A stretch of 64,000 bases of DNA from Bacteriovoracaceae bacterium (GTDB lineage: Bacteria; Bdellovibrionota; Bacteriovoracia; Bacteriovoracales; Bacteriovoracaceae), in contig JABGXW010000099.1 of NCBI GenBank assembly GCA_018675575.1, positions 1 to 64,000 of the forward strand. The letters run 5' to 3'. Below the pieces are notes generated by a model. The model saw nothing but the letters and a program-made list of their open reading frames with translations, had not been told where the DNA came from and ran no database searches. Shown piece after piece: positions 39,289 to 44,732 of the stretch (positions within the stretch are counted from its first letter, which is position 1; the number at the start of each line of letters is the position of its first letter). A program made the position numbers and the translations under genes.

Positions 39289-40806
39289 ATGGAATTAAAA
39301 CTTGCGTTTAATCAAACCACTCCCGTATCTACGGACCTTCATGTTGTTGCTGCTTTTAGCAAATCAACTGAAGCGAAAGGAAAAAAATCTACACAATCAT
39401 TGGTTAATGGCCATTGGTCTAAAGAACTTAAAGAAGCTTTTTTGAAAGTTAATTCAAATTCCTCCTTCACAGGAAGTCAGGGGCAATCTGTTTTATTTCC
39501 ACTTGAAAATGGAACTATGGTGTACGCATTAGGCTGTGGTGAAAAAAATAAAATTAAAAGAGAAAGTTTAAGAAAGATTATGGCGAATCTCTTTAAAAAA
39601 ATTAAAGACAGTCATTCAAATGTTTCTTTTGATATTGATGCTCTTATTATTAAAAAAGATGTAACTGGAACGATAGACGCTTTAGCAGAATCACTATACA
39701 TGACAAATTATGCCTTTGATAAATATCTTACAAAGAAGGCCACTTGCAAACTTGAATCTATAACTTTTCAAACTACAGAAAAGAAAACGAAACAAAAGTC
39801 TGCTGAAAAGTCTCTTGAAAATGCCAAAATCATTGGTGATGCTGTTGCCTTTGGTAGAGACCTCGTTAATGAACCACCAAATGTTCTTTTCTCGACTTCT
39901 TATTCAAAAATAATTGAAAAAGATGTTAAGAATATCAAAAGAGTAAAATTTAAAGCTCTTGGAAAAGCTGATCTAAAAAAAGAGAAGATGGGAATGTTTC
40001 TTTCCGTTAATGCTGGGTCTGCTCATGAGCCAAGACTAGTCCATCTAACTTATGCTCCTGCTAAACTGACAAAAAAGACCAAGCATATTGCACTTGTTGG
40101 AAAAGGACTAACTTTTGATACTGGAGGATATTCATTAAAGCCTGGTGGCTCAATGATGAATATGAAATATGATATGGCCGGCTCGGCCACTATGTATGCC
40201 GCTTTTAGAGCAGCTGCTATGCTTCAACCTAATGTAAAAATAACTTGTATTCTAGGTATGACTGATAATGCTGTTAATGAACATGCCACTATGCCAGATT
40301 CAATCGTCACTGCCAGAAATGGAAAGACAGTTGAAATTTTAAACACTGACGCTGAGGGAAGACTAGTTCTTGGAGATTGTTTAGATTATGCCTGTGACCA
40401 AAAACCTAATGTTGTGATCGACGCTGCGACTTTAACCGGTGCTTGTTTAGTGGCGCTTGGGACTGAAGTTTGTGCTCTTATGAGTAATTCAAAAAAGCTT
40501 TCCGCTGATTTATTAAAATCATCTGATTCTGTTGATGAAAAACTTTGGGAACTTCCTATCATTGATGAATGGAGAGATGATATGAAATCTAATATCGCTG
40601 ATCTTAAAAATATCGGCAGTACCAGATTTGCAGGAACTCCAAAAGCAGCTGCCTTCTTACAAGAATTTGTTCAAGAAGGAGTTGATTGGGCCCATCTTGA
40701 TATTGCAGGGGTTGGTGATTCAGCAAAGCATCTTCCCTACTGTCCTTCAAAAGGGGCCAGTGGAATTATGGTGAGGTCTTTAGTTCATTACATGACAAAT
40801 GCCTAA
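39289..40806 (+). CDS. pepA: Leucyl aminopeptidase (M17)
   Basis: This 505-residue cytosolic aminopeptidase releases N-terminal residues using two metal ions in a hexamer. Motifs are intact: GKGLTFDTGGYSLKPGGSMM with the metal-binding Lys/Asp, the NTDAEGRLVLGDCLDYA signature with Asp/Glu ligands and the catalytic Arg, and DAATLTGACLVALG. The N-terminal macro-like domain (about 1-170) is divergent, as is usual. AAGGAAG precedes the ATG. It overlaps trmL by eight bases. Confidence 0.95.
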   Translation: MELKLAFNQTTPVSTDLHVVAAFSKSTEAKGKKSTQSLVNGHWSKELKEAFLKVNSNSSFTGSQGQSVLFPLENGTMVYALGCGEKNKIKRESLRKIMANLFKKIKDSHSNVSFDIDALIIKKDVTGTIDALAESLYMTNYAFDKYLTKKATCKLESITFQTTEKKTKQKSAEKSLENAKIIGDAVAFGRDLVNEPPNVLFSTSYSKIIEKDVKNIKRVKFKALGKADLKKEKMGMFLSVNAGSAHEPRLVHLTYAPAKLTKKTKHIALVGKGLTFDTGGYSLKPGGSMMNMKYDMAGSATMYAAFRAAAMLQPNVKITCILGMTDNAVNEHATMPDSIVTARNGKTVEILNTDAEGRLVLGDCLDYACDQKPNVVIDAATLTGACLVALGTEVCALMSNSKKLSADLLKSSDSVDEKLWELPIIDEWRDDMKSNIADLKNIGSTRFAGTPKAAAFLQEFVQEGVDWAHLDIAGVGDSAKHLPYCPSKGASGIMVRSLVHYMTNA

Positions 40807-41272
40807 GGATATAAAAGAAAATAGTTTTAAAATTGTTCTCTACGCGCCCGAGATCCCTGGTAACACAGGGTCCATCGGGCGTACTTGTTTAGCTCTTGAT
40901 ATACGTTTGATCCTGATCAAACCCTATGGTTTTGACTTAGATGAAAAAGCTGTTCGAAGAGCGGGACTTGATTATTGGAAGCATGTTGATTTAGTTGAAT
41001 ACGAATCTTTTGATGACTTCTTTGAAAAAGAACAACCAGAGCATCTTTATTTCATGACAAAGTTCGCTGAGAAATCTTATTTCGATGCAGACTTTAGAGA
41101 AAATTCCTATCTAATATTTGGAAGAGAAACCAAAGGCCTGCCCGATTTCGTTCCGGAAAAATACCCTGATGATAGCTATAAGCTTCCTATGTTTTCTGAG
41201 CATGTGAGGAGCTTAAATCTTTCAAATGCAGCAACCGCCGTGGCCTACGAGGCCCTCAGACAACTTTCCTAA
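40799..41272 (+). CDS. trmL: tRNA (cytidine/uridine-34-2'-O)-methyltransferase TrmL
   Basis: TrmL methylates the ribose at the wobble base of certain leucine tRNAs, using SAM. The 157-residue protein is a minimal SPOUT knot enzyme with YAPEIPGNTGSIGRTCLAL at the start, LIKPYGFDLDEKAVRRAGLDYW (quoted in part, about 36-55), YLIFGRETKGLPD and the C-terminal knot SLNLSNAATAVAYE. Its ATG overlaps the pepA stop by eight bases. The transposase unit begins eight bases after its stop, at a site where insertion does not harm the gene. Confidence 0.94.
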   Translation: MPKDIKENSFKIVLYAPEIPGNTGSIGRTCLALDIRLILIKPYGFDLDEKAVRRAGLDYWKHVDLVEYESFDDFFEKEQPEHLYFMTKFAEKSYFDADFRENSYLIFGRETKGLPDFVPEKYPDDSYKLPMFSEHVRSLNLSNAATAVAYEALRQLS

Positions 41273-41279
41273 AATTCCT

Positions 41280-41303
41280 AAAAGGTGCCAGCAGACTTTT
41301 CAT
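41280..41303 (+). repeat. Left 24-bp inverted repeat of the transposase unit
   Basis: The repeat starts AAAAGGTGCCAGCAG and ends ACTTTTCAT, and matches the complement of 42035-42058 at all 24 positions; the next bases on both sides differ. Within the repeat AAAAG and CTTTT can pair over an 11-base loop carrying GTGCCAG, so each copy may fold as a small hairpin. Confidence 0.9.
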
Positions 41304-41387
41304 CTATTTTCTTTTTGCGAAAGTCTATGATGGATCTAGAGAAATTTATTTTGTATTTACAGAAAATGAAATATTAAAAGAATAAAC

Positions 41388-41954
41388 TTAAGATTTTACT
41401 AATTTATAAATAGATTTTTTTAAGCTTCTAGAGATTTTCACAACTTCTTTATCATGCAAATTTTCTTTTTTTGAATTTAATTTATAAAGTTTTTCAATTG
41501 GAAATTCTAGTTCATCATTATTTCTCTTTGCAGTAGAATAAGGATAATAATGGGCTTCAGCAACAACTTTTGCTCTAATTGGGTTTTGATAAATATAATC
41601 AAAAATCTTTTCCAAGTGATTATTGTCTTTAATTAATGACCATTTATATCTACCAGAAAACATTCTATTTATAAGCTTAGTTTCTATTCTTAATTTCAAA
41701 CTGAAATTTTTACCAAACTCATACATAAATTTATCTAGGTTTTTATCAGGTGTTCTAATTAGCATATGATAATGATTACTCATCAAAACAAATTGAGCTA
41801 TCACTGCAGGATGTTTTTTATATGCATGATTTAAGGAATTAACAGCAATTTCCCATACCTTATCCATGGAACAGGAAAACCATAATTTATGATTGGATCT
41901 ATTATAAACGTGATAAAAATGTTCATTTGATCTTATTAATGGACGTCTAGGCAT
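41388..41954 (-). CDS. REP-associated tyrosine transposase (RAYT, Y1 family)
   Basis: This 188-residue protein is a single-stranded-DNA transposase of the Y1/HUH family. The HUH motif is NHYHMLIRT (HYH, about residues 75-77), and the YIYQNPIRAKVV element (about 135-146) contains the candidate nucleophilic Tyr and the NPxRA signature typical of RAYTs. The N-terminal PRRPLIRSNEHFYHVYNRS is also characteristic. The frame opens at a TTG at 41966, but GGAG six bases before the ATG at 41954 marks the start. The gene appears intact. It is bounded by 24-bp inverted repeats. RAYTs mobilise or maintain REP palindromes. Confidence 0.92.
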   Translation of the reverse strand: MPRRPLIRSNEHFYHVYNRSNHKLWFSCSMDKVWEIAVNSLNHAYKKHPAVIAQFVLMSNHYHMLIRTPDKNLDKFMYEFGKNFSLKLRIETKLINRMFSGRYKWSLIKDNNHLEKIFDYIYQNPIRAKVVAEAHYYPYSTAKRNNDELEFPIEKLYKLNSKKENLHDKEVVKISRSLKKSIYKLVKS

Positions 41955-42034
41955 AATGTTCTCCAAAAGAGAACTAACTACATATAAAATAATTTCTCAA
42001 TAGTTCTTTTTACTTATAAATATAAACTTCAGTT

Positions 42035-42058
42035 ATGAAAAGTCTGCTGGCACCTTTT
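42035..42058 (-). repeat. Right 24-bp inverted repeat of the transposase unit
   Basis: This is the exact complement of 41280-41303, read as ATGAAAAGTCTGCTGG then CACCTTTT on the plus strand. It lies 80 bases upstream of the transposase start and runs into a pyrimidine tract (T and C only, with long T-runs) that continues to about 42087. Confidence 0.9.
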
Positions 42059-42138: not shown

Positions 42139-42212
42139 CTCTTATAATCATTTTTAAATATTTTTGTTTCAGGCCAAATCGTCTTTCATAACTGAACTAC
42201 TTCTAACTAAAA

Positions 42213-43451
42213 TTAGAACCAGTAAGTCATAGCAACCCGGGTAAGAAGATTACTTAAAGTTAAAACTCCGACCTTTGTTCCTGTTACTGTACTTCCCACC
42301 ATTCCGTCAACAGTAAGCTTTCCAAACATTAAGCTAGCTCCAGCTGCAACCGCTGTGTTATTAGCAATTGTCGCTGTCTTTTCAACATCTGCTGTTACAA
42401 CAGTTGTGTCCGTATTAAAGGCGGCTGCTAAAGCTCCAGCAAACTGGGCGGTGACATTCTGTGAACCACCTCCACCCATAATATTTTTTTGCTTAACGCT
42501 ACCTGTAAGGTTATGGGAAACAGAACCTCTCCATGTTAACCAGTCATTGGCCTTCGCCTCAAATCCTACAGCTAAAGGTAAGACAGTATGAGTCATCGAA
42601 GCAGCGTTAGTTGTAGCGACATCAACTTTTGTGATTTGGTATCTAGCATTAGTAAATAATGTAGCACCATTTCCTAAGTCTTTTGTATTTCCATAACCAA
42701 CAACAATTTCACTATACTTTCCTGCTACAGCTAGATTAGAAGTAAAAGCATTACTTTTTTGATCCCATTTAAGTGATTTATAAGAGGCAACTAATTTGTT
42801 AGCTCCCATATTATAAGCACCACCTAAATGAAGCCCTAAGCTACCATCAAATTCTGTAGGATTTGTAGCTTTCGTTTTAGATTCACCACCAAGAGAAACA
42901 TTTGCAAAAGCTTCAGTATCACCCATGATCATACCTAAGCGTGTTGCCATATTTTTCTCTTCTTTATCATTGGTGGGAGTTCCTGAATTTTCTAACTTGC
43001 TATTAGTATATAGCAAATTCCAACCCCACTTCATACTTCCTGTATCGCTTCCAATAAAAACATCAACAACATTATCTGCTTGAAGTAATTCTCCGGCAGT
43101 TCCCTCTGCAGCCATTCTCAGTAGAACGCCTGTATTAGACTCATTTCCCAAGTTTACACCATAGACATATTTTCCGCTTTTTCTAAGAAAACCTGCTTGA
43201 GCCTTAGGTGCTGCAGATACTGTCAATCGAGTATTAGCGGTACCAGCGACTAATGTACCCGCTGTACCCCATTCCATATTCATACTATCTGCATAATCAT
43301 TTACATAAGCAGCATTTAAAAAGATTGATCTATTATCATTGATAAAATAATTATCTGTTACACTGGAACCAAGTGCTTCAAGTCGTGCACTTGTGGCATA
43401 GGCCCCACCAGATAATCCTAATAAAGATGCTGCAATTATTATTTTTTTCAT
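42213..43451 (-). CDS. Outer-membrane porin-like beta-barrel protein (second of a tandem pair)
   Basis: This 412-residue protein has a signal peptide (1-19, cut after AYA) and a C-terminal TYWF ending in Phe, the classic outer-membrane barrel insertion signal. Between them are alternating beta strands with Gly/Ala/Thr/Asn-rich turns. It is a relative of the 43512-44654 product: both begin mature with xxARLEALG, then NxSIFxNAAxVN, and both share MEWGTAG/TEWGTAA and end with LTxxLxRVxxxYWF. AAGGAG precedes the ATG. The 60-base gap from the first porin contains a strong hairpin. The porin function is inferred from architecture. Confidence 0.82.
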   Translation of the reverse strand: MKKIIIAASLLGLSGGAYATSARLEALGSSVTDNYFINDNRSIFLNAAYVNDYADSMNMEWGTAGTLVAGTANTRLTVSAAPKAQAGFLRKSGKYVYGVNLGNESNTGVLLRMAAEGTAGELLQADNVVDVFIGSDTGSMKWGWNLLYTNSKLENSGTPTNDKEEKNMATRLGMIMGDTEAFANVSLGGESKTKATNPTEFDGSLGLHLGGAYNMGANKLVASYKSLKWDQKSNAFTSNLAVAGKYSEIVVGYGNTKDLGNGATLFTNARYQITKVDVATTNAASMTHTVLPLAVGFEAKANDWLTWRGSVSHNLTGSVKQKNIMGGGGSQNVTAQFAGALAAAFNTDTTVVTADVEKTATIANNTAVAAGASLMFGKLTVDGMVGSTVTGTKVGVLTLSNLLTRVAMTYWF

Positions 43452-43511: not shown

Positions 43512-44654
43512 TTAGAACCAATAATGAACACCAACTCGGGCCATTGCAGTATTAAGTGTTAGTACACCTGCTTTTGCAGCACCAGTCCCTGCGCCAATAG
43601 ATCCATCAACTTTTAATTTACCAAAGCTTAAAGTTGCTCCAGCATTTACAGCAGTAGTATCAGCATTTGTTAATTTAGTAGTTGTCGCAGTAACAGTTTC
43701 TGTAGAATTTATAAGAACAGATTGTGATGCTGAACCTCTAAGTGTTAGCCAAGAATTAGCTTCTGTTTCAAAAGTTAATGTAACAGGAAGGTTGGTGTTC
43801 TTTACCTCTGTTGCAGTACCCGTTGCAGGAGTATCTTTTCCATTCACGGAAGAATAAGCCACGGCTGCTGTAATTCTAGCAGTTGAAGAAACTTCGTGAG
43901 TTTTAGCAAGACCTACAACTAGCTCCGTTCTTTCTGTTTTAATTTCCGCAACGCCCGTTCCGTTAGTAAATTTAACTGTATCTTTGTCGTATTCAGCAAA
44001 CAATTGAAGATCACCTAAACCGTAACCAAAGTTTACTTCCATACCTGTATTATCAAACTTAGTACCTGCTGTTGCGCCATCTTCTTTAGACTCATCAGAA
44101 AGTCCAAGATTAACAGATGCTGTAAGATCTCCCATAATCATACCAAGACCAAGTCCTAAAGCAGATTGCTCTCTTTTAAGGGCAGCACCACCGGGCTCAT
44201 TTGAGTTAGATGCATAATGAACATTAGCTCCCCATTGAACTCCCATATCTCCACCAAAAAATAGATCTAAAGCATTATCATGAGCAACTAAGGCTGCAGC
44301 ACCATAAGCTCCTGTTCCACCAAAGCCAGCACCACCAGCTCTCATTGTATTTTGAGCATTAGCCTCGTTCCCCATATAAAGACCATAAGCAAATGATCCC
44401 ATTTCTCTGAAGAATCCACCTTCAGCATGTGGAGCAGTTAATGTTTCTGCTGTAGCAGCTGCAGTACCCCATTCAGTTACCACATAATTTTTGAAATTGT
44501 TGACATGAGCAGCATTCCTAAAAATGCTTCTTGTGTCCTGAATGTAGTGTGATCCACCATTGTCTTGACCAAGAGCCTCTAATCTAGCTTTTGTAGCGAA
44601 AGCGCTTGTTGATAATACCGCTAAACCAGCAGCAATGACGATTTGTTTTTTCAT
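43512..44654 (-). CDS. Outer-membrane porin-like beta-barrel protein (first of a tandem pair)
   Basis: This 380-residue protein has a signal peptide (1-20, cut after AFA), a Gly/Ala/Thr-rich body with alternating beta-strand pattern and a C-terminal VHYWF ending in Phe, expected of an outer-membrane barrel. It is related to the downstream gene along most of its length. The frame begins at a TTG one codon upstream, but AAGGAG eight bases before the ATG at 44654 marks the start. A good promoter lies about 80 bases upstream. High expression is suggested by the strong promoter and ribosome binding site. Transported solute is unknown. Confidence 0.82.
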   Translation of the reverse strand: MKKQIVIAAGLAVLSTSAFATKARLEALGQDNGGSHYIQDTRSIFRNAAHVNNFKNYVVTEWGTAAATAETLTAPHAEGGFFREMGSFAYGLYMGNEANAQNTMRAGGAGFGGTGAYGAAALVAHDNALDLFFGGDMGVQWGANVHYASNSNEPGGAALKREQSALGLGLGMIMGDLTASVNLGLSDESKEDGATAGTKFDNTGMEVNFGYGLGDLQLFAEYDKDTVKFTNGTGVAEIKTERTELVVGLAKTHEVSSTARITAAVAYSSVNGKDTPATGTATEVKNTNLPVTLTFETEANSWLTLRGSASQSVLINSTETVTATTTKLTNADTTAVNAGATLSFGKLKVDGSIGAGTGAAKAGVLTLNTAMARVGVHYWF

Positions 44655-44732
44655 CAATCTTCTCCTTGAAGTTTTTATTAAACGATTACGTTCACTTTTT
44701 GTAATCTAAGTTAACAATTATAAAACTTTTTT

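Follow-up and report, generated by a model that had tools for sequence, protein, structure and literature searches.

A TIRtron-like transposase unit in a Bacteriovoracaceae genome and dispersed repeats that match its inverted ends

The unit at positions 41280-42058 of the window, by which we mean the entire 64,000-nt stretch of Bacteriovoracaceae DNA that was analyzed, is best explained as a TIRtron (probability roughly 0.8), that is, a gene for a HUH single-strand DNA transposase related to RAYT/TnpAREP, flanked by its own recognition end, GGTGCCAGCAGACTTTT, in two inverted copies, and mobilizing short ends in trans. The evidence comes from the gene and its ends, dispersed copies of the end core in the same genome, enzyme-matched palindromes in relatives, and the concerted change of both ends. 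The small repeat population in the window's own genome, with one close pair and 15 rather than 24 nt in common, counts against this reading, as do the relatives with such repeats but no detected matching enzyme, the degenerate right end in G016, and the homologues lacking significant flanking repeats; insertion polymorphism between strains was likewise not observed. TnpAREP cleaves and rejoins REPs (PMC6006769); on this parallel, single-stranded ends are the most likely substrate of the window enzyme, which would move short ends, paired or single, in trans. In such ends, for instance those on the lagging-strand template, the enzyme would read a linear box, GGTrCs-N6-CTTTT; Tyr120 would nick and the ends would then be joined, both the cleavage and the choice of strand being presumed. 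Short non-autonomous elements with two inverted ends (REPIN-like) or single ends would be moved or copied in trans, the enzyme spreading these rather than its own gene, and the copy in the window may still work.

Layout of the unit and its transposase

The unit is compact (779 bp), with perfect ends and a single minus-strand gene between them (Table 1). The perfect 24-bp inverted repeats reported in an earlier note on this DNA were confirmed: the arms are complementary at 24 of 24 positions across a spacing of 731 nt, and this best flanking inverted repeat was unequalled across 200 shuffles, which preserved base composition alone. As the earlier note had it, the gene and ends look intact: the reading frame is unbroken, the catalytic residues are invariant, and the arms are identical over 24 nt. 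The outer AAAA of the repeat is probably flank rather than repeat, judging from the other units, because their repeats begin with (A)GGT and their flanks vary. Over 13 nt (TTTCATAACTGAA), the right end on its inner side (42028-42040) matches the region before the porin stop (42184-42196) in inverted orientation, possibly by chance in AT-rich DNA. The porin-like gene on the right (42213-43451) is adjacent to a related gene for a porin-like outer membrane protein (43512-44657), both on the minus strand.

Table 1. Positions of the features of the unit and its surroundings in the window
Feature	Position	Strand	Remarks
trmL-like tRNA methyltransferase gene, left neighbor	40799..41272	+	common to G035
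Tandem TTCCTAAAA x2	41266..41283	+	overlaps the trmL stop and the left repeat's outer edge
trmL-side terminal inverted repeat, AAAAGGTGCCAGCAGACTTTTCAT	41280..41303	+	3' side of the transposase gene
Conserved part of the trmL-side repeat, GGTGCC-N6-CTTTT	41284-41300		
TIRYT/RAYT-like HUH/Y1 transposase gene, 188 aa	41388..41954	-	ATG 41954, stop 41388-41390
Catalytic Y120 of YIYQNP	41595..41597	-	invariant; the aligned motif in E. coli TnpAREP (4er8) is YIYINP
HUH motif H61-Y62-H63 (metal-binding)	41766..41774	-	both histidines invariant among 20 aligned sequences
Probable ribosome binding site GGAG	41961..41964	-	6 nt before the ATG; read from sequence
Porin-side terminal inverted repeat, perfect inverted copy	42035..42058	-	5' side of the transposase gene
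Porin-like outer membrane protein gene, right neighbor	42213..43451	-	common to G035

The hairpin formed by AAAAG and CTTTT in each end, as proposed in the earlier note, was rejected: a single end as single-stranded DNA folds with -1.1 kcal/mol (z = +0.28), no better than shuffles. No covariation between flank and tail was detected across the ends (p = 0.61), in a test of low power because the tail is almost invariant. The GTAG/GTGG tetranucleotide is missing from the window end as well; given the fold and the lack of GTAG, this end is not a canonical REP. The proposal that the outer repeats are a REP mobilized by the enclosed RAYT was largely right in function, with a dispersed core here and enzyme-matched, REPIN-like sets in relatives, and wrong in the hairpin detail, the repeats not being hairpin REPs of the GTAG type.

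The start of the transposase gene is better read as the ATG (protein MPRRPLIRS...) than as the TTG at 41966, because this start is conserved and preceded by the GGAG. In an alignment of 20 homologues, H61 and H63 (NHYH), Y120 (YIYQNP), N124, and P125 are invariant. The protein matched Pfam Y1_Tnp slightly over the cut-off and NCBIfam REP_Tyr_transpos (REP-associated tyrosine transposase) at 64 bits, below the 80-bit cut-off. Structure comparison with its AlphaFold model (mean pLDDT 83) retrieved E. coli TnpAREP with a REP hairpin as the top PDB match (4er8, E 5e-8), followed by IS608 and ISDra2, and this fold, together with the invariant HUH motif and Y120, bears out the earlier assignment to RAYT-type HUH/Y1 transposases. 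The TnpAREP residues reported to read the GTAG guide, W94, Q95, E100, H101, and R104 (PMC6006769), correspond to F99, S100, W105, S106, and K109 of the window protein, a residue-by-residue match that is tentative because the pairwise alignment is weak (E 0.04); the changes at these positions agree with the missing GTAG in the window ends. In the tail of the protein, no Pfam match to an HTH was detected at E up to 1. The genome encodes a second RAYT-like protein (G000:C28:43909-44373, L004), 39% identical to the window transposase, for which no significant flanking inverted repeat was detectable.

Dispersed end repeats and homologues in the family

In the genome to which the window belongs (G000; 3.73 Mb, 92% complete), the exact 24-mer has no occurrence beyond the unit and was rejected as a genome-wide repeat. 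What recurs of the 24-bp repeat singled out in the earlier note is a 15-nt core, GGTGCCAGCAGACTT; relaxing the search to this core uncovered dispersed copies. There are six exact copies, compared with about 0.001 (0.0013) expected: the two unit ends and four dispersed, intergenic ones. With up to two mismatches, the core was found in 13 places (two being the unit ends), and the reversed core, as a control, in 2. All five dispersed loci that were checked fall outside ORFs of 80 aa or more. The dispersed copies match the unit ends over 15 nt, not the full 24 nt; those on contigs C35 and C76 have in common a longer hairpin-capable stretch, GGTGCCAGCAGACTTATGCCGTAGGCTCGGCRCC, and the only close pair, short and able to form a hairpin, consists of inverted cores with an 18-nt gap (C150:9213/9246). 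Palindromes of the form AAAAGGTACCA...CTTTT (G000:C17:38579/38617 and C158:5658) perhaps represent a second end-like repeat family in this genome.

Homologues of the transposase were identified in 28 of the 59 genomes searched, mostly draft assemblies, with few and divergent gene copies per genome. Significant flanking inverted repeats were present at 36 of the 49 homologue loci examined, delimiting units of about 0.7-1.06 kb, and were not detected at the other 13, the C28 paralogue included. The aligned ends have a common motif, (A)GGT[GA]C[CG]-N6-CTTTT, that is, GGTrCs-N6-CTTTT, fitted on the very sequences that it describes. The arms differ at 1.2 of 17 nt within a unit compared with 8.1 between units, and the six outer flanking bases differ at 3.6. 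A correspondence of one end type to one protein clade holds only partly on the tree: clusters are formed by GGTGCCAT ends and by most of the GGGGTC ends, which occur in the more distant homologues, and GGTGCCAG and GGTACG ends are scattered. A contig search with the window transposase protein alone yielded no matches; with the paired pattern, it retrieved five contigs, from metagenome assemblies named Bacteriovoracaceae or Oligoflexia.

Several relatives contain repeat populations matched to their own enzymes. The G016 enzyme is 49% identical to that of the window, and its unit has the upstream end GGTGCCAGCAGACTTGTGGTAGAGC and a degenerate right end; this genome contains 34 copies of the core at up to one mismatch, and nine palindromic pairs, each 54 bp long and always offset by 39 bp. 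In G035, whose enzyme is 51% identical to that of the window, the end core GGTACGTCCACACTTTT has 13 exact copies, and five pairs form 70-72-bp palindromes with 22-nt tips identical to the G035 unit ends, the bases after the tips resembling the inner continuation of one unit arm. The G035 core is missing from G000 and G016, as is the window core from G035. The ends of two enzymes in G014 are likewise dispersed (GGTACGTCGATACTTTT, 12 copies; GGTGCCATGCTCYTTT, 15 copies at up to one mismatch). Four more genomes (G009, G018, G021, and G033) contain GGTGCCAGCNGACTT-like repeats, either the window core or a one-base variant (GGTGCCAGCACACTT in G018), and no transposase with that end was detected in them, so the link between enzyme and repeat is not one to one.

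In G033 (L187, L188, L189, and L191) and G009 (L172), paired elements of greater length, about 110-220 bp, carry the same tips; they are related within each genome, and a cognate transposase was undetected in the respective assembly. G016 also encodes a different group of Y1 transposases (C2:539525, C1:688796, and C3:140118; L124, L125, and L218), the other copies showing 80% and 69% DNA identity to L124, and on these sequences the group resembles a lineage with a more recent spread; two adjacent, weak matches were found in G021 (C73:13216 and 14633).

The trmL-porin junction and alternative explanations

An aminopeptidase gene followed by trmL is found in 36 of 36 family genomes examined, and the next gene is variable. 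Empty sites at the trmL-porin junction, for which the earlier note had looked to relatives, exist in G024 and G025, from two other genera, where the porin-like stop lies 57-65 bases after trmL with a terminator-like hairpin only in between; G035, however, contains a unit at the same junction, with the gene in the opposite orientation. Taken with the recurrence of the core, these junctions gave a mixed outcome for the refuting condition set in the earlier note. Independent insertion of the G035 and window units at one hotspot, as opposed to one inherited insertion that was later flipped, comes near to an even bet without quite reaching it. This scenario is favored by the opposite orientations, by the trmL proteins of the two genomes, which are not sisters in a weak, poorly resolved tree, and by the A-rich outer flanks of the units (AAA in 17 of 59, about 2 expected), which may reflect a target preference; it is at odds with the placement of the two transposases in one supported clade (98) and with the identical trmL-side boundary, CCTAAAA/GGT, allowing for one tandem copy. 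Between G035 and the window, both unit ends changed together, each type with its own matching genome-wide repeats. Somewhat more tentatively, the two units could derive from one ancestral locus, the unit having flipped between its own ends, with a joint replacement of the sequence recognized, the two ends, and the mobile hairpins across the genome (GGTGCCAGCAGACTTTT versus GGTACGTCCACACTTTT). If so, nature would have run an experiment here in which transposase specificity and the dependent repeats change in concert.

Among the alternatives to a TIRtron, a dead or domesticated relic, in which the enzyme formerly mobilized repeats that now survive as a small, heterogeneous, decaying set, is unlikely but deserves the most weight. 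The single close pair and the 13 places in 3.73 Mb are what such decay could leave, but the reading frame is intact, the catalytic residues are invariant, and the arms are still identical over 24 nt while ends diverge strongly between units. An ordinary IS200/IS605-type insertion sequence that transposes whole, with the inverted repeats as its ends, appears improbable. The compact unit with perfect ends, the patchy distribution, and the empty junctions are compatible with it, but IS200 transposases (subclass 1.1) usually occur in several near-identical copies (PMC6006769), whereas here there is one copy plus the paralogue without such ends, homologues are few per genome and divergent, no stable subterminal hairpin was found, and what is multicopy in relatives is the short repeats, not the gene. 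Finally, we consider it highly improbable that the repeats are operators or mRNA processing or termination signals of the gene, with the dispersed copies regulatory rather than mobile: the intergenic location and the RNA-stability role proposed for REP-like hairpins (PMC3733652) fit this possibility, but the palindromic pairs in relatives have a fixed length, variable loops, and unrelated sites, the repeat set differs between genomes in step with the transposase-unit ends, and the palindromes are not regularly followed by a T-tract.

TIRtrons are catalogued, but functional data are absent from the cited literature. The homologues in the Bacteriovoracaceae family provide about 36 enzyme-end pairs with a common two-part end motif, and the window and G035 units occupy one locus with enzymes that are 51% identical, ends that differ, and repeat sets that exclude each other. 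This material allows direct tests of which residues recognize which bases and of whether repeat sets turn over when the enzyme changes, and the enzyme-specific repeat sets within one bacterial family make a good test case for target change.

Comparison with known systems

With IS200/IS605 elements (IS608 and ISDra2), the unit shares the HUH/Y1 catalytic core; unlike them, it is not multicopy, and no stable subterminal hairpin was found in it. REPtrons, RAYTs with GTAG REPs and REPINs (Nunvar 2010, PMC2817692; Bertels and Rainey 2011, PMC3116915), are closer in that they share the enzyme fold, a low-copy gene flanked by inverted repeats, and enzyme-specific dispersed repeats, many of them short inverted pairs. 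Unlike in REPtrons, the window end lacks GT[AG]G, a single repeat forms no stable hairpin, and copies number from a handful to tens, not hundreds. In the window's genome, dispersed, mostly extragenic copies, a REPtron trait, exist for the core only and are clearer in G016, G035, and G014; the REPIN layout is represented by one pair here and is clearly multicopy in G016 (54 bp) and G035 (70-72 bp).

Judged by its sequence, the unit agrees with the TIRtron/TIRYT class, described by Di Nocera et al. in 2013 (PMC3733652), which falls largely in TnpAY1 subclass 2.1 (20 of 26 TIRYTs; Quentin et al. 2018, PMC6006769; Bertels group 1). The window transposase resembles this subclass in the NH[YF]H and Y---NP signatures, the low copy number, and the delta/epsilon/beta bias, and differs from it in length (188 aa versus a median of 238 aa) and in the lack of a detected HTH in the tail. 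Quentin et al. found no REP-like sequences close to genes of subclass 2.1 (PMC6006769), whereas here matching dispersed repeats are present. In the library searched, we found no paper linking Bdellovibrio with RAYT/REP in a relevant way, and Bdellovibrio is not mentioned in the text of Di Nocera et al. 2013 (PMC3733652). The published TIRtron motif, GGGGWSAS, differs from the GGTrCs-N6-CTTTT that predominates here (window core GGTGCCAG); this motif is present in only some TIRs (PMC3733652) and is therefore not strictly defining. The layout, which the earlier note had taken for a new REP/RAYT pair, was already described in 2013: a RAYT-like gene enclosed by long TIRs, together with TIR families of moderate size and dimers (PMC3733652). 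As in that description, the HUH tyrosine transposase gene here has on either side a long inverted repeat that bears no relation to GTAG REPs, and such ends can be members of repeat families of moderate abundance, frequently as dimers.
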